30,164 bases of DNA from Phoronis ovalis. Lineage: Eukaryota > Phoronida > Phoronidae. The notes below the pieces were generated by a model, which was not told the DNA's origin, made no database searches, and saw only the letters and a program-made list of their open reading frames with translations. The translations under genes and the position numbers were made by a program. Location of the stretch: assembly GCA_028565635.1 (NCBI GenBank), contig JAOXYB010032730.1, positions 1 to 30,164 of the forward strand. The letters are read 5' to 3'. Positions within the stretch are counted from its first letter, which is position 1; every line of letters starts with the position of its first letter. Below, one piece after another: positions 3,059-25,554 of this stretch.

Positions 3059-3131
3059 GTCACCATAGTGTAGTGGTTATCACGCTCGCCTCACACGCGA
3101 GAGGTCCCCAGTTCGAGCCTGGGTGGTGACA
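3059..3131 (+). tRNA. tRNA-Val (anticodon CAC)
   Basis: The 73-nt sequence folds as a full cloverleaf. The acceptor stem is GTCACCA/TGGTGAC and the D arm holds GTGTAGTGGTTATCAC (internal A box). The anticodon arm is CTCGC-CTCACAC-GCGAG with anticodon CAC, and the T arm is CCCAG-TTCGAGC-CTGGG (B box). The discriminator is A. It has no intron, and CCA is not encoded, as expected in eukaryotes. The body closely matches the usual animal tRNA-Val(CAC). It decodes GUG in cytosolic translation. It lies about 230 bp upstream of the CHD1 first exon, on the opposite strand. Confidence 0.97.
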
Positions 3132-10557: not shown

Positions 10558-12169
10558 ATGGTTCGCAATAACAATATGGCTCTACAAACGGGATATACAG
10601 TAACGTCACCTAATTCTACAACTAATCGTGTAAGTATGATACTGTGATGATAGTACAGCATTGCACAGGTTTCATTAAATATTTTTACCACAAGACAAAA
10701 CGGACATTCACAGCTCGCTACATTACGATACATTCACACAAGGTTTCATATTCCCAATTGCTATATCAATCCATTATTTTTGTTTGTAGGTCGTGCATAA
10801 TGATGTAGGCCGGGAGAGACGAACAACTATGCAGCATGATAAGGGCGTTAGTAATCACACAACTCGTGAAAGACATTTGCGTGAATCTATGAAGGCATAC
10901 AGCGACAGGATGACACAAATTTCTCAATCTCGTGGCCTTTTCTTTACACAGCCTTTGAATTCACCAGAAGAGGTTGATGACTCTCTTTTCGTGCGTGCAA
11001 AACATATACCGAAATATCGGCCTTTACCAAAGTTGCGAGACAAGCATAGATTAGACTTATTGGATGATCATTTAAGTCGCTCTTACGAAACATTTAATAA
11101 TGACATCACAAAAGTCAAAAAAGAAATATATACTCGCCACAGCCTGCCCGATTTAAAATTAGAACCTGTTTTACCACAGGCTAGCACAAAGAAGAAATTC
11201 AAAATGAACTTTGTGAGTGCTGCTGATTTGTACGATATTATTGACAAGCAAGCTGTTCATAATGGCGCTATGCTTACTACGACAAAAGCATTAGCATTAA
11301 CGCCCCTAGAAACCAGAGGGACACATGTTAGAAAGAATGATGCAGAGCTTTGTGTAACTTCAAACATAATAAACAAGACGAATCGAGATAAAAATAAAGA
11401 AATCGAAGGCAGCGCAGATCGGACAAAACGCAGCAAAGAAATCAAACGTCAAAAACAAAATAAAAATACGCAACATGACAACCAACAGCCAAGTACTGTA
11501 TCATTGATTGAGAAAGAAGAATACAGGTGGACAAACGAATCAATCATACAAACGGGTCAAGTGCAATCTCCAAAAACGTCGGACGCAATGAAATCATCTA
11601 AACAAATGCTTACAAATAGTTCTGAACAACAAAAAATAACTGACGCTGTTAAGCGAGCTAAGTTTTCTGTTACTGAATTTGACAAGCAGTTACGTCAAGC
11701 AATAGGAAAATCTAAAAAAGCAAAACGAATGAAACTTCAACCTCCAAATCTTGGTGCTATTCCTGAAAATGATATAGTAAGCGAAGAAAGTGAGTCTGAC
11801 GATAACGAACAAGATGCCGTAGCATCTTCTGTTGTAACGAGAAAGGTGCCATCAAGAAAACACAACCCCAGCATATCTCCATTATCACTTCGACCCATGT
11901 TAGCAGCTATTCCCGAAATAACATCGCCTGAAGAAGAAATAAAAGATCCTAAAGGTTTAGCGGCTATTAAAGTTTTACGTAGCTCCATCTCAAAGGATTC
12001 CAGATATCATAAAGATAACGTTATGACGACCCATCAGATGGACGCCAAAAAAATATTACCGGAAAGAACAGCATCTGATGTTGCCAAAGGGAAAGCTAGA
12101 AGGCAACTAAGAATGGAGCGTAATAAATACCGTGCTTCTGCGCATATAAAAGGATATTCTTCTAAATGA
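10558..12169 (+). CDS. Unrecognised basic, disordered protein (gene A), paralog of gene B
   Basis: Two exons are inferred. Exon 1 is 10558-10629 (24 codons from MVRNNN, preceded by an in-frame TGA, donor CGT|GTAAGTAT). Exon 2 is 10790-12169 (acceptor TTTTTGTTTGTAG, phase 0, 459 codons plus stop). The protein is 483 residues. I number residues from the GTG codon at 10793. It is rich in Lys, Ser, Gln and Glu and mostly disordered, with no membrane segment. Motifs shared with gene B are HLRESMKAYSDRMTQIS (28-44), ESIIQTGQ (249-256) and FDKQLR followed by a KSKKAKRMK basic run (296-314). An RPMLAAIP stretch (367-374) is followed by acidic residues. An acidic Ser patch, EESESDDNE, sits at 331-339. 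I do not recognise the family and propose no function. A shorter product starting at the internal ATG at 10829 is possible. Confidence 0.75.
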
Positions 12170-12241
12170 ACTCCTACTTGCAGCTAAATTATCAAATGAA
12201 ATCATACAATGCGTCTGACACAGTTAGTAGTGCATTAGTGA

Positions 12242-12290
12242 AATAAACAGCAGTTGATAGGGCAGCATTTCTTACAAATGATTAAATAAA
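12242..12290 (+). terminator. Polyadenylation signals of gene A
   Basis: Two AATAAA hexamers, at 12242-12247 and 12285-12290, lie 72 and 115 bases after the gene A stop codon, a normal 3' UTR distance. Either could set the transcript end. Both precede the long hairpin at 12381. Confidence 0.55.
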
Positions 12291-12380
12291 AACATCTACT
12301 ATCAGATGCAAACATCCTTAGTCAGGCCTGCCAATCAATCGTTGTACACGAAGTGTCATTCCTCGTTCAATCGCATATAC

Positions 12381-12559
12381 ATTTTCCTGCCACACGGCCA
12401 CATTTCCGTGTACTCAAACAAGCACATTTTGCTAATTTCCGGACACACAGAGAAGAATTACTCGTGTGCCAAAGATCCGTTTATGATACCAGCAAAATGT
12501 GCGAATGTCTAGAAACAATGGGCCGAGTACACGGAAATGTGGTCGTGTGGCAGGAAAAT
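12381..12559. repeat. Long inverted repeat (hairpin) downstream of gene A
   Basis: The 35-bp arm 12381-12415 (starts ATTTTCCTGCCACACGG) is the inverse of 12525-12559 with one mismatch. A second, inner stem pairs GCACATTTTGCT (12422-12433) with 12491-12502, perfectly. Weaker similarity extends a little outside the arms (CGCATA at both ends). The arms are more GC-rich than the flanks. It could be a MITE-like insertion or a structured transcript. Short ORFs over it are by-products. Confidence 0.8.
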
Positions 12560-12569
12560 TATGCGTGAG

Positions 12570-14632
12570 ACAGGCGAATTAGTGTAAAGTCACCTGCTGA
12601 TAGAAAAGTTTGCGTTATGGTAACTTACTTTGTCCGTTATATTGATAAACTTTACAGAATCTTATAATGTGGAGTGTTTGTCTTAGGAATATGTAACTCA
12701 GAGCATACCATTATAATAATATAAAATTACAAAATGTATATATATAAAACGCTTGAGGCTGTAAAACTACCTTTAAAAATCTAAACATTTAAAACAATCG
12801 AAAAACAAATCAAGAACTTATCAAAGCAAAAATTACAGAAGTGAAGATTTCGATTTTTAGGCATTTTTTAGCATTATATTGTTATCCATTCGGCCAAAAA
12901 CAATATGTCTTGCTTAGAATATCTTTTAAAATTTAAAAAATCCGTAAGATCTGTTACATCCCTAGGAGTACACTATTTGCATACACTTGGTGGAGCCACC
13001 CAAACGATCCAAGCATGTGGAATTATTCTGTGAACGAAAAATGACGTAGTACTGCGTGCACTCACTTACTTGATTCATTCACAAAACGCATGCTGAGCTA
13101 ATACCAATAAAAATCTTATGTTCTTTGATCTGAGAAATGCCTTCCTTTTTGTGAGCATATCAATACATAAACAACTATTTATTAATATTTTTTTATTTAG
13201 TTAAATTTTCACCGGTTAAAGCTTTTCTAAAGTCAAATTCAAAATTTTGTGTATAACTAAAGGATGCCGCCGGGTATTGAAAGGGTCTAACTGTGTAGTG
13301 CCTTCAAGTGCATGCAAAAAGTCTACTGAGATAGCAAAGGCAAGCAAAGATAATTATTTTTTACAAATAATTTTTTACAAATAATGCTTGTTGTTTGAGA
13401 TTTAACATCGTTGATGTGGGGAGAGTTGATTTTGAAGTTCAAAATTTCTTCGTCACAGCTTTACAAACAATAATTTATTTAAGCTAATGTGATGTTCCAT
13501 AAAGAAAATTATTTTGTAAGTGCCTATTATAAGTTTTCTATTACCAACGACAGCTCATCAATAAAACGTACACACTGTTAAAAACAAACTATAGGCGTGA
13601 TTGAGATACTGTAGCTTTGAAAATGAATGTGCGTGACTCGATCTACCGAGATCGTTACTGCAATTTGTAAGGGCATTCATCTGTAAAACTTAACTTGTGT
13701 TAAATAGTGATTTCAATGACATGATCTCTCGGGAAATCGTCATATATGGTATAAGGAGTGTCCGTGTAATTGTTCGTTCAGCATTTTGCAAACGATATAA
13801 ATTGTTGTTGTTTTTTAAATAGCCAGTGCAATGTCTCACCAAATTGCAATTAATGACAGAGAAATTTGTCAAACAACAATTCTAATAACGCCCATCTGTT
13901 ACTTGTCGCCAGCCTGTTTGATCTAAAAATACGAAACATACTCTTCGCAAATTTCTCATTCGTTATAAGTATTAAGTGTTTAACTAGCTGAATATACTTT
14001 TTCTTATAGTGGTCTACAATATAGTGAAAGCGGCTGGTAAAGTACATTAATTAACTGGTTTCATCTTTTTGCAATAACGTATATTGAAATAAAGAATGCG
14101 TTTTTTAATTTCCCACAATCTCCGCGACTGAACGAGTACTTATAATGGCAGTATGCACAGAAGTCCAGCTATATGATATAATATGGTTGATGTTGGGGCC
14201 ACTCATGTAAAATAGTGGTAATCGAGCTCGTTAACATAAACGCGTAACAAGGGTGCTTATTTGAGGAACTAGGCACGTAATGAGTTTAGGGAGGAATTTT
14301 AGCAATTTTGAGCAAAAGACATGGTTAAGAGTCTGTTTTCATCACAAGTCTGACTTAAGTGACCAAAAAAGGATGCGGCTTCTAACCCTGGTCTGTTTTT
14401 CACAAATCTTGTTTAGGGTCCATTTTTTGCTTGTCGAAAAATTTTAGTCCTCGAACCTACTCAACCACTTGTTTGAAGGCTTGTGTTGAACATTAACATA
14501 CATGATTACCCGCATTTATTTGAGTGTCCCCGGGAGTTTTGACACAAGCACCAAATTGGCACAAATGTAGTGTTTGACATTGCAACAATTTCAGATATGC
14601 ATCCGACCTACCTAAAAGTTTCCATAATGACC
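12570..14632. other. Intergenic AT-rich stretch
   Basis: I see no gene, RNA or well-formed repeat, apart from a short duplicated TTTTTTACAAATAAT near 13360. Short minus-strand ORFs around 13690-14047 have no recognisable motif. Confidence 0.5.
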
Positions 14633-14786
14633 AGCAAATCTAAGATGGTCGCCAAAAATCATTAAAAATGATAATTTCTTAATTTGGCACCTGTAAAATT
14701 CCAAAGAGTAAACCATGCACATAATGTAAAAAGAAGAATCTTTTAGCAACTTGTGGGTAGCAAATCCAAGATGGCCACCAAAAATT
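14633..14786. repeat. Direct repeats of an AAGATGGCCACCA-type motif, period 126 bp
   Basis: AGCAAATCTAAGATGGTCGC at 14633 recurs as AGCAAATCCAAGATGGCCAC at 14759, and both continue with CAAAAAT. The 27-bp copies differ at three positions, while the sequence between is much less alike. The core resembles a YY1 site. Confidence 0.65.
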
Positions 14787-14972
14787 GTGTGATCTTTTCC
14801 TAAAATGACTTGTCAAAAGATGAACAATGAAGATAATGCATGAAAAGGAATCTGTCAACAATATCAGACATTTTGTACATGTCATTGTTTTTTTACCATT
14901 AAATTAGAATTAGACAATTATCCTTCGGTTACGCTTTTGCTTTTGTCAACAAAGCGGATAGATAGGTGGGAG

Positions 14973-15214
14973 GAGCTCCCGAGGGTACTCATGGTTTTTT
15001 AACTACGGGGATGTGCCGCCCAACCCAATCGCTTGTGGTAGCAAACACAATCCAAAATTTTTGAAATATAAGGGTAACAATCCAAATTTTTGAATTTCTT
15101 TATGGTAGCAATCCAAAAAAATCACAGTATGAAGTACACAATCCAAATCCAAAATTTGCAACTGAGCTGCACACCCTCATCAAAAATAACTTGAGTACCC
15201 CCCGAGGAGGAGCT
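14973..15214 (-). mobile_element. Inverted-end element E2, same family as E1 in opposite orientation
   Basis: On the minus strand the element reads GGGGGGTACTCAAG..GTGTGCAGC, then TTTGGATTGTGTACTTC. Several TTTGGATTGCTACC-like units follow, then GGGCGGCACATCCCCGTAG..CCATGAGTACCCTCGGG. It can be aligned along nearly its whole length to E1 (9043-9448) but has fewer core repeats. The two ends are imperfect inverses of each other (AGGAGCTCCCGAGGGTACTC and the inverse of GAGTACCCCCCGAGGAGG). Confidence 0.65.
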
Positions 15215-15324
15215 GAGAACGATTTTAAAGTCAGGACTTCTGATTCTAATTGCAAAAGCCTTTTTTCAGTAAGCATTTTTGCAAAACAAATACGCAACCA
15301 GTCGATTTCTGCATTCTACCCCGC

Positions 15325-15772
15325 TGGATTACAGACCCGGGGGATCACTTCATATTTATTCATATGGTATACTCGGCTGGGACTTCAAACCCACTGACAT
15401 CCTCTATACCAAAATTTTCCAATTTTTTTTGCCACATCCTCTATAGCAACCCAAAAAATTCGCGGACATCCTCTATACATTTTTATTTTCTTTTTTTTTA
15501 CTTTGCCGCTAGCATTTGCAATTTTTAAGTGCGAGCATTGCACCCTGGGGGGAACCGCTAGCACCCTCCTCTATACCAACCAAATTTTATGGACATCCTC
15601 TATACCTACCAAAAATTAACGCCCTATACCTAAAATAGAGTGAATTTTACGACATCCTCCTTTCCTGAGCTCTAAACTGTGGACATCCTCTATACCGAAA
15701 CCCTGAAAATGGACCTACTCCAGCAGAGCATCCCCGACTGACATTATTATTAAGTAATCCCCCGGATTACGG
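15325..15772. mobile_element. Inverted-end element E3 with internal GGACATCCTCTATACC repeats
   Basis: The left end, CCGGGGGATCACTTCATATT, mirrors the right end (inverse of AATAATAATTAAGTAATCC-type sequence ending CCCCCGG). Inside, about seven copies of a unit near GGACATCCTCTATACC occur at irregular spacing (near 15397, 15434, 15466, 15564, 15592, 15651 and 15677). The core is unrelated to that of E1/E2, but the layout is the same: a GC-rich inverted end, short degenerate units and no protein gene. It lies about 110 bp from E2 and ends about 140 bp past the gene B stop codon. Confidence 0.6.
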
Positions 15773-15912
15773 AAAAGAAACAGCATTAGATAGTATAAAA
15801 CGCTAAATGAAATAGTCGCATCTATTAACTATTTGCAGCCAAAATAAGGATGGTACATTTTTTTATATAGATCAATCAAATAATTCACACTGTGCCTCCA
15901 GTAAGAATACTG

Positions 15913-17494
15913 TCAAAATTGAGTTTGGTCCACATTTTGCAAATTGAACTGCACGGACTTTGACCTGTTCAAATTCGAATCATCCTTCTTCAGTGTAGGA
16001 CGTAGATTTGTTTGCTTGGAATCGCTTTCTTGATTTGATTTAAAATGATTTTGATGATCGAAACATAAATTAAATTCACCATTGTTTGTCAGTTCTTCAT
16101 CATTGTCATGGTGCGTCTGCAGCTGAGAAAGGAGATCACGCGAAAGTGGTCCTGACAACGTTGTAGCTTGAGTAGACGACCGTCGCCTATCTGACGTAAA
16201 GGATACCCTGGCTTGATCGCCTTCCTCGAACACCACCGACGGTAAATCAAACATACTGCGTCTCGTGGCGTGAAGTATCTTACTATTCAGTGAATCTCTT
16301 CGTGTCTCCGTGTAGGTTTGTGGGAGTGCCTGATTAATTAGGGATGAGTGTAAAGCGTCTGAATATTTATACATGTGATGCACAACAAGGTTGTCTATTA
16401 TTCTTGAAGGAATTAACCCTCCTTTACTTGCCAAATCATCTTTTACAGTCGGTTTTGATTCTGTAGCAGCATAAAGAATAGGCGTTAGTTTCGTTTGATT
16501 ACTACCTTTCCGGGAAAGTTTGTTTGTAGGCCTATTCGAAATAAAACTATCTTGTTTTTGAAGTTTTTTCCGCGCTCGTAGCTTTTTATCGAAAGCTCGT
16601 TTTCCTGAGTACTGTTTTGCTGGCACTAAGACTGTTCCTGCATCACGAGTTTTAGCAGGCAAGCTGGGAAATGGACTGATCTCAAGAGAGTTATCTTCAG
16701 ATAAATCACTGTCCTTTTCAATGTTTTCATCTAACAATAACCTAGATTCGGTTTCATTTATTCGATTCGATGTTTCACTGAGGAGTGTTACAACATTTTC
16801 CCCGCTCGTCTTTGGAGAGGATTTTGAATTGACTGCATTTGTTTCAATTTTCATGTTTGCAAGGTCATAAATATTTGGCGTCCTCGGGCAGCCAGTTTCA
16901 TATTTGCTCACATAGTTGCCATGCCCAGTCTGAACTATAGGCTCTGAACGATGTCGAAGATGGTCCTTAGGAACAATTAAATATCGTTTACCATTAGGGG
17001 ATTCTTGACTTGGTAATTTACGGTGTTTTGCATTGGGCAAACCTTTTAAACTGTTTGATGTAGTTGTATTTTTCTTGCGCTTCTCCGTTTTCAGCTTTTT
17101 ATTTTTATCTTGGTAACCTTCTTTGTCTTTCAGTTCTTTCCTAGACTGAGTGTCGCCGAAAGATAACTCGATATCTTCTCGACATAATGAGATTTCTTTC
17201 ATTCGCTGAGTATAAGCTAACATGGATTTTTCTAAATGTTGGCGATACTGATTCATCTGATTGAGTTCCTTGCGATGCAGGCTTTCATATGCCTGCAGCG
17301 TAGAACCCATCTTTCTGTGAACGCTGTTATTGGATGTTGCCTGTTCAGTCTCATGATGGATACGGGAAACCCCTGCATAATTTGTATTACTGGTGACTAT
17401 GTGTTTGCTCTGTCTATGCTGCATATCATATAATTCTTCGTTAGTTAGTAACGGCAAACAATGAGTAAATTTGCGGAGCACGGGATAGAAATAT
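15913..17494 (-). CDS. Unrecognised basic, disordered protein (gene B main exon), paralog of gene A, with PP1-docking-like motifs
   Basis: A single long exon follows a strong acceptor (TTTCTTTTGCAG, exon from 17494) and opens with an incomplete codon, so an upstream exon is expected. A start at the internal MQH (17424) is the alternative. Numbering from the codon at 17481, 522 residues remain. Shared with gene A are HLEKSMLAYTQRMKEIS (82-98), EPIVQTGH (180-187), FDKKLR followed by ARKKLQKQ (297-310) and RRSMFDLP (407-414), then acidic residues. RVSF (425-428) and KSVQF (508-512) fit the RVxF consensus that docks protein phosphatase 1. RRRSST just after the first resembles a basophilic kinase site. 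The protein is hydrophilic with no membrane segment. The family is unknown to me, and PP1 binding is inference from short motifs. The gene faces gene A tail to tail. Confidence 0.75.
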
Positions 17495-17629
17495 CTGCAA
17501 AAGAAATTGTAAAAAACAAGTGAAGTGTCATGCGGAAAAAAGGCACACAGTAGTGTCCCTAAGCTTCATCTCGCTTTCATCCGCAACATAGTTCCTACTT
17601 TTTTCCACGCTAAATAAAATGCTCGACAG

Positions 17630-24386: not shown

Positions 24387-25283
24387 TTATTGCGTTTGTG
24401 GAACTCTTGTTGGTAGTCTAAGGTGAGATGAGTATTGGTTAGAATAGGCACCTTGCTGCAGTTGCGCATATCCCGATTGTCCGTGCAGGTACGAGCTAGC
24501 CGTTCCGAGAGGTGAATTACCCATGGAACCAGGGGTAGGATAATAGGGTGATGACGACGCTACGGTTTGATTCCACGCTTCAGACTTTACTTGATTCTGA
24601 TACTGCTGACCCTGTGATAGCGAAGACAGCGTGAGCGGATTAAACGATGGATAAGGAGCCCCTTTATAGCTTGCTCCGACACTTGGAGAACCAAATAGCG
24701 TAAAATGGCCGTACGAATTTACGTGTTGTATCTGGGCATGATCATCACGTCTTATTTTCGGCAGCTTAAATCGTTTAGCTCTACGCAAGAAACTACCGTT
24801 AGCAAACATGTCTCCACAAGCCGGGTGTAAACCCCAGTAGTTTCCTTTGCCTGGTCGACCGGGGGCACGGGGTACCTTGATAAAACAGTCATTCAATGAT
24901 AAATTATGACGAATTGAATTTTGCCATCTCTGCTGGTTGTCCCTGAAGTATGGAAATCTGTCCATGATAAAGGCATATATCTCATTAAGCGTCATCATAC
25001 CGTGCGCGGAACTCTCTAAGGCCATGGTAATTAAAGCTATATATGAATAAGGCGGCTTTACGTCAGCAAAACGTCGCTTCTCTTGAGATAACGTAGATGT
25101 ATAATGCCCTGACTGAGTAATATCTAATTTAGTTTGAGACTTCAAATGATCTAGATCTTCTTTATCATAAAAATCTTCAGTTCTGTCAACCCGTGGCGAA
25201 GTGGTTTGTAAAGGAGGTGTCGCATCTATCATACAGGACGAATTGTCCCTACGATCAACTAGGCTATTACTATCCATTATCAT
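24387..25283 (-). CDS. FoxAB: Forkhead-box transcription factor, FoxAB-like
   Basis: The protein is 298 residues in one coding exon. A complete forkhead DNA-binding domain spans about residues 76-173: [17 protein letters not shown], helix 2 [19 protein letters not shown], recognition helix [15 protein letters not shown], then [15 protein letters not shown] and wing 2 [20 protein letters not shown]. All canonical contact residues (N, R, H, S of NSIRHNLS) are present. The combination of FoxB-like LHPxCGDMFxNGSFLRR with FoxA-like [10 protein letters not shown] and GRPGKGNYW fits the FoxAB class, known in invertebrate bilaterians and absent from vertebrates. The class is from memory and not a tree. 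The N-terminus is short and polar. The C-terminus is rich in Ser, Tyr, Gln and Gly, as in activation regions, and I see no EH1 repressor motif. The start is the first ATG after an acceptor at 25293; ATG three codons in is equally possible. Confidence 0.9.
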
Positions 25284-25554
25284 ATCTGCAAACTGTAAAC
25301 AGAAAAGAAAATTTCGAAAAAAATAATTAACATGTTATGATATATACAAGAAAACACAAAATATTTATTATCTGTGACCGCAAAGGTAGTAGAAAAGCAG
25401 TGGCGTTTTTAAACTTACAAACATTGTACAAAAAAAATATAAATTTAATAACACTCAACACAGGGGACTGTAAATAATTCTTATTGTAAAAAATCTCGAA
25501 ACTAAACAGTATTTATAAATAAATGAAAACAAATGGTATCGTTACTTAACTCAC

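Follow-up and report, generated by a model that had tools for sequence, protein, structure and literature searches.

Two convergent neighbouring genes of Phoronis ovalis share a short N-terminal helix between otherwise dissimilar, probably disordered proteins

Spiralian-specific genes of the ciliary bands have been described, and Lophotrochin and trochin (ELT92671.1) are reported there as lineage-restricted, trochin as lacking known domains (PMC7441323). A further point of comparison is given by PP1 regulatory subunits of the RVxF type, RVxF being described as the common PP1 docking motif (PMC4482762 and PMC4794898). In addition, four uncharacterised bivalve proteins, Sinanodonta ACJMK2_043260 (P0003), Potamilus CHS0354_007785 (P0005), Dreissena LOC127877529 (P0017) and Mactra ACF0H5_013447 (P0019), are relevant to the genes reported here. 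We analyzed a window of 30,164 nucleotides from the phoronid Phoronis ovalis (contig JAOXYB010032730.1 of assembly GCA_028565635.1), which contains two long convergent open frames, gene A on the plus strand and gene B on the minus strand. Both look real, and 3,743 bases separate the end of A (12169) from the stop of B (15913-15915); the tail-to-tail pair proposed in an earlier note is thereby confirmed. Sequence comparison supports an old relationship of these neighbours for a helix of about 37 residues, not for the whole proteins.

The module common to the A and B families has the form YE..........L..SM.AYT.RM..I..R, of which A itself lacks the leading YE. It lies at 10829..10933 (+) in A and at 17179..17289 (−) in B. 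BLASTP, profiles, the assembly search and the AlphaFold models locate it in both genes, and in A a shuffle test does so as well. The BLASTP comparison of A with B gave one significant stretch (expectation value (E) 3e-4). The pattern HL..SM.AY..RM..IS, which the earlier note had claimed for both genes, held up: none of 1000 shuffles of the B piece reached the observed score with the N-terminal piece of A. Comparisons across the two families gave E 4e-5 for B and bivalve P0005, E 1e-3 for P0027 (the relative of B described below) and P0011, and E 9.9e-5 with probability 58 when B was compared with a profile made from A and its relatives. For a ranking test, the module profile was built from the 26 relatives of A, without A, B and P0027. 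Among 10,006 sequences, A (26.1 bits), P0027 (21.9 bits, E 5.5e-5) and B (19.6 bits) took ranks 1 to 3, and the best of 10,000 shuffles reached 11.7 bits.

The 77.4-Mb assembly was also searched; searches there score the best candidates only. With a 43-residue bivalve module as the query, two places were found at E≤10, namely A (E 0.012) and B (E 0.27). Neither match is significant alone, and they count because both fall on one 30 kb contig, 6.2 kb apart. No third copy was found among the best candidates scored in the assembly with A, B, P0027, P0005 and the bivalve module as queries. Furthermore, a module profile of 12 sequences, A and B among them (A4), had no match at E≤10 in PDB (177,635 distinct sequences). 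Thus, generic helical proteins do not score with the module profile.

The sequence outside the module was compared as well. When whole A was aligned with whole B, 15 of 1000 shuffles reached the observed score. After removal of the module, A and B scored 63 (shuffle mean 53.7), a value attained by 155 of 1000 shuffles. In comparisons with shuffled sequences, of the kind suggested by the earlier note, the module profile places B above 10,000 shuffles, and outside the module A and B are no more alike than A and shuffled B. For whole P0027 against six relatives of A, 3 to 18 of 300 shuffles reached the score, and 9 to 260 did so without the module.

The earlier note had further listed E.I.QTG, FDK.LR and an R.M..P block as motifs of one family. 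A and B do contain E.I.QTG and FDK.LR letter for letter; in a pattern search, however, these two occurred in none of the 26 relatives of A and not in P0027, and they were not kept as family motifs. The R.M..P text is, by reading, spaced differently in the two proteins (RPMLAAIP in A and RSMFDLP in B), and a pattern allowing one or two residues before P was found in B, but neither in A nor in any of its 26 relatives; this motif was likewise dropped. In a comparison of A with 500 shuffles of B, 89% of the shuffles had one or more 7-mer pairs alike at 5 of 7 positions, and 57% had one or more 6-mer pairs alike at 5 of 6. The observed pair counts were 10 for 7-mers and 4 for 6-mers, against shuffle means of 3.68 and 1.06. 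These counts were reached by 4.0% and 5.4% of the shuffles, respectively, and a slight excess remains. The earlier chain of motifs can be read as a single real block, the later resemblances being explicable by chance or composition. An old relationship, as proposed in the earlier note, is supported for the helix of about 37 residues, and it is not supported for whole proteins carrying four motifs in order; the conserved blocks of A are missing in B.

The stop-to-stop frames encode 459 residues for A (10790-12169, +) and 550 residues for B (15913-17565, −). The predicted protein of gene A has 483 residues, and its coding sequence of 1,452 bases is divided between two exons. The predicted first coding exon (10558..10629, +; 24 codons) rests on splice sites and frame and ends at a GTAAGT donor in phase 0. 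The predicted phase 0 intron runs from GT at 10630 to AG at 10788-10789, with a good donor and a good acceptor. The main coding exon with the stop (10790..12169, +) is marked by the open frame, the 26 relatives and one match in the assembly at E≤0.001. With the predicted exon 1, residue 57 of A (0-based 56) is the first of the SM in the module; it is at 0-based 53-65 in 25 of the 26 relatives and at 27 in P0013, which is shorter. Thus, the N-terminal length of A with exon 1 fits the A family.

The coding region of gene B, from the first ATG to the stop, is one exon of 503 codons for amino acids (15913..17424, −), marked by the open frame, the relative P0027 and one assembly match at E≤0.001; the SM of its module is at 0-based 66. 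In the BLASTP alignment, the first ATG (17424) pairs with residue 1 of P0027, so no upstream coding exon of B is needed. An acceptor-like AG after a pyrimidine tract, seen in the letters alone, lies upstream at 17495..17496 (−). With the start of B at ATG 17424, an intron ending at this AG, if used, would be an intron of the 5′ untranslated region. The intron that had been placed just before the N-terminal part of both genes is therefore retained for A, as a prediction, and a coding intron in B is unsupported. The proposed difference in intron phase is unsupported as well.

In a search of about 5.8 billion proteins, A had 26 relatives at E≤1, of which 17 were at E≤1e-3 and the best at 7.6e-11. 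An organism name was attached to four of the 26, all of them bivalves (Sinanodonta, Potamilus, Dreissena and Mactra). The A-family alignment consists of A and 25 of the 26 relatives (P0008 was left out), and the identity of A to the aligned relatives is 20-26%. Three blocks are conserved in A and in all 26 relatives: DSLFVRAKHIPKY (10979..11017, +) with [VI][RQ]AKHIP, FVSAADLYDIID (11210..11245, +) with VSA.DLY[DE], and AKRMKLQPPNLGAIPEND (11720..11773, +), also seen in the alignment, with KRM[KR]. A pattern search found none of the three in B or P0027. Like the four bivalve proteins, A carries the module, VRAKHIP, VSAxDLYD and KRM[KR]L..P.LG.IPE in this order; unlike them, it has neither the RRPMSFDEL-type wording nor RIEVTQCPPK. 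In the alignment the latter block, near the C-terminus, is also absent from P0001, P0002, P0004 and P0006, and thus it is not universal in the A family. Judged from these comparisons, A is a member of an unnamed conserved family. No mention of this family was found in the literature with the identifiers of the four named relatives and two peptide words.

The same kind of protein search with B gave a single protein at E≤1, P0027 (472 residues, E 3e-8). The identity is 29% overall; by BLASTP it is 45% across the first 87 residues of P0027, which include a TNYAG box and the module. The tails show a weak colinear alignment, the score of which is reached by 1 of 1000 shuffles, and full-length P0027 as the query finds only B in the assembly. 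The N-terminal box VTSNTNYAG of B (17371..17397, −) pairs with VTKQTNYAG of P0027. Near the C-terminus, B has KSVQF (15946..15960, −), a candidate PP1-docking motif of the RVxF type, and P0027 has KSVRF; B and P0027 may be compared in this point with RVxF-type PP1 regulatory subunits, the motif alone being weak evidence. When each protein was shuffled 5000 times, the KSV[QR]F-type pattern arose in 2.9% of cases for B and 4.1% for P0027, and the strict pattern occurs in 0 of 26 A relatives. Both proteins carry the VT..TNYAG box, the module, F[DE]LP and KSV[QR]F in this order; P0027 differs from B in lacking E.I.QTG and FDK.LR. A B family can provisionally be defined from these two known members, and on the alignments B is a member of a different family than A. 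If B and P0027 are orthologues, we would infer that the lineages of A and B separated before the split between P. ovalis and the source of P0027. Faster evolution of B than of A could be inferred only from the contrast between a single relative and 26.

In our searches, neither A nor B was found to fit a Pfam, PDB or named family. With Pfam (cut-off E 10; the HMMER filters drop most matches above about 0.1), A gave two matches, E 0.16 and 0.37, both below the curated cut-offs, and B gave none. In the same database, the 26 members of the A-family alignment (A2) matched two families, each through a single member (E 0.0026 and 0.058); P0027, P0003 and P0001 had no match. Sequence searches of PDB gave nothing meaningful: no match for A, a best E of 0.54 for B, and E 1.3 and 0.85 for alignments A2 and A3, respectively. 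The earlier note had considered that each gene might belong to a different known family; A and B are indeed in separate families, and no Pfam or PDB family was found to fit either.

In the AlphaFold model of B, the mean predicted local distance difference test score (pLDDT) is 44, and 43 of 502 residues are at 70 or more. A 51-residue helix (model residues 32-82, where model residue 1 is B residue 2) covers the module. The highest blocks (92, 97, 96 and 85) lie in this helix; residues 41-70 account for the values of 92-97, the block of 85 comes next, and no block outside the helix is above 66. The model of A has a mean pLDDT of 49.7 and the module helix at residues 25-52 of exon 2; its best 10-residue block (pLDDT 92) is in the module, the next best (81) is beside it, and a C-terminal helix has blocks of 74 and 78. 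In these models the module is the best-supported helix of both proteins, and the low-confidence tails are probably disordered. The fraction of charged residues is 0.31 in A and 0.28 in B, and that of hydrophobic residues is 0.24 in each. By reading, the conserved hydrophobic residues of the module (L, M, Y, M, I) are in 4-3-4-3 spacing. Such spacing is typical of coiled coils.

We tentatively favour, at slightly less than an even chance, the reading that A and B are anciently related or module-sharing, largely disordered proteins with the module helix near each N-terminus. The pair has the look of very old relatives that, outside the helix, are no longer recognisably similar. Several results weigh against this reading. 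For whole B against six A relatives, 2, 8, 27, 36, 54 and 57 of 300 shuffles reached the observed score, and 13 to 260 of 300 did so when the module was removed from B. The full-length profile of the 26 relatives, which ranks A first and P0027 second (E 0.0011), does not list B, and with full-length P0005 as the query the assembly yields A and not B. Thus, only the module links A and B. The E values of 0.012 and 0.27 for the bivalve module in the assembly, where only the best candidates were scored, are not significant alone. Both structure models are of low confidence overall, and the helical periodicity is not clean: among six periods 3.5 is the highest in A and bivalve P0011, not in B or P0027. 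The B family rests on one relative, and a profile search with the alignment of B and P0027 found no protein, not even P0027, which makes this negative unreliable. As for PP1 docking, a looser RVxF pattern occurs in 8 of the 26 A relatives, and it is present a second time in B, as RVSF. Moreover, the six-residue PP1 form, in the consensus quoted in PMC4794898, fits P0027 (KKSVRF) by reading and not B (SKSVQF), the KSVQF of B being without the extra basic residue.

A rival explanation is that no duplication took place: two unrelated genes would have received the same helix by exon movement or fusion, and their adjacency would be accidental or a trace of that event. The shuffle-like remainder of A and B agrees with it, as does the start of the A module about 40 bases past the predicted intron. 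However, A and B are alike in length, composition and module position, they are adjacent in the assembly, in which the bivalve module found no third place, and fast-diverging disordered tails would look as they do after plain duplication as well. We regard exon movement or fusion as unlikely, though as an explanation to be taken seriously. Convergence of two ordinary helices without kinship would suit a shared block that is short and helix-forming. The best shuffle in the ranking test, at 11.7 bits, is one of P0027, and thus the letters alone give some score. It is nevertheless below the scores of A, P0027 and B, no PDB sequence responded to the module profile, and only A and B did so in the 77.4 Mb; we consider such convergence improbable.

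A or B may also be a gene that has already been published as spiralian-specific, for instance trochin or a different one among the 37 screened genes (PMC7441323). The named relatives of A (four of 26) are from bivalves only, no Pfam or PDB family was found for either protein, and the genes of that report are of the same kind. On the other hand, the Capitella trochin clone is a fragment of 876 bp, shorter than the coding sequence of A, and may be partial. Lophotrochin carries DUF4476, and no DUF4476 match was found in A or B by a Pfam scan with cut-off E 10, in which most matches above about 0.1 are dropped by the filters. We give this identification little credence.

Under the favoured reading of related or module-sharing proteins, A and B would most likely be disordered scaffolds joined by a coiled-coil-like helix, a function that we infer. 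The genes may have originated by duplication. The module helix probably pairs as a coiled coil, whether with itself, with the other protein of the pair or with a common partner. The disordered tail of A would present VRAKHIP, VSAxDLYD and KRM[KR]L..P.LG.IPE, and that of B the TNYAG box and the C-terminal KSV[QR]F, possibly a PP1 docking site, so that A and B may be scaffolds on which different partners are brought together. In a more specific form, A and B would be partner scaffolds kept together since an ancient lophotrochozoan duplication and joined as an A-B heterodimer through the helix, with B bringing PP1 and A the partners of its blocks, in a structure specific to the lineage, for example ciliated bands; we hold this form to be very improbable.

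Other features were observed around the pair. Next to the 3′ end of gene A, an element at 12290-12590 has 35-nt inverted repeats (12381-12415 and 12525-12559; 97% complementary) and partial matches of 75-91% identity on at least seven other contigs; it is probably a small non-autonomous transposon. Beyond the 3′ end of gene B, at 15386-15695, a 24-nt unit that ends in GACATCCTCTATAC occurs four times, irregularly spaced at 69, 127 and 90. A Forkhead transcription factor gene lies at 24387-25334 (−), and its domain, which looks FoxQ2-like by eye, is in one open frame of 315 residues (Pfam Forkhead, E 8.7e-38). A tRNA-Val (cac) gene is at 3059-3131 (+). At 350-1119 (−) lie two short open frames, 353-658 and 826-1119, the latter rich in serine and acidic; they may belong to one spliced gene and had no Pfam match at E≤0.01. 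Elsewhere in the assembly, the mitochondrial contig (C1114; 15.7 kb, 27% GC), read with the invertebrate code, carries twelve protein genes named by eye, nad1-nad6-cob-nad4L-nad4-nad5 on one strand and cox3-atp6-nad3-nad2-cox1-cox2 on the opposite strand. This arrangement is similar to that of chitons; like the bivalve relatives of A, it points to a source that is probably lophotrochozoan.

As the evidence stands, A and B are an ordinary case of uncharacterised disordered proteins, and the finding is a modest one. A conserved family for which no description was found, that of A, gains a first anatomy, and a single helix links a second family, that of B, to it. Where no more than a short piece remains recognisable, relatives of genes like these are easily overlooked, and the module together with the conserved blocks provides a handle for finding them in other animals. 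If the pair acts together, A and B would form a testable, perhaps lophotrochozoan-specific, complex.

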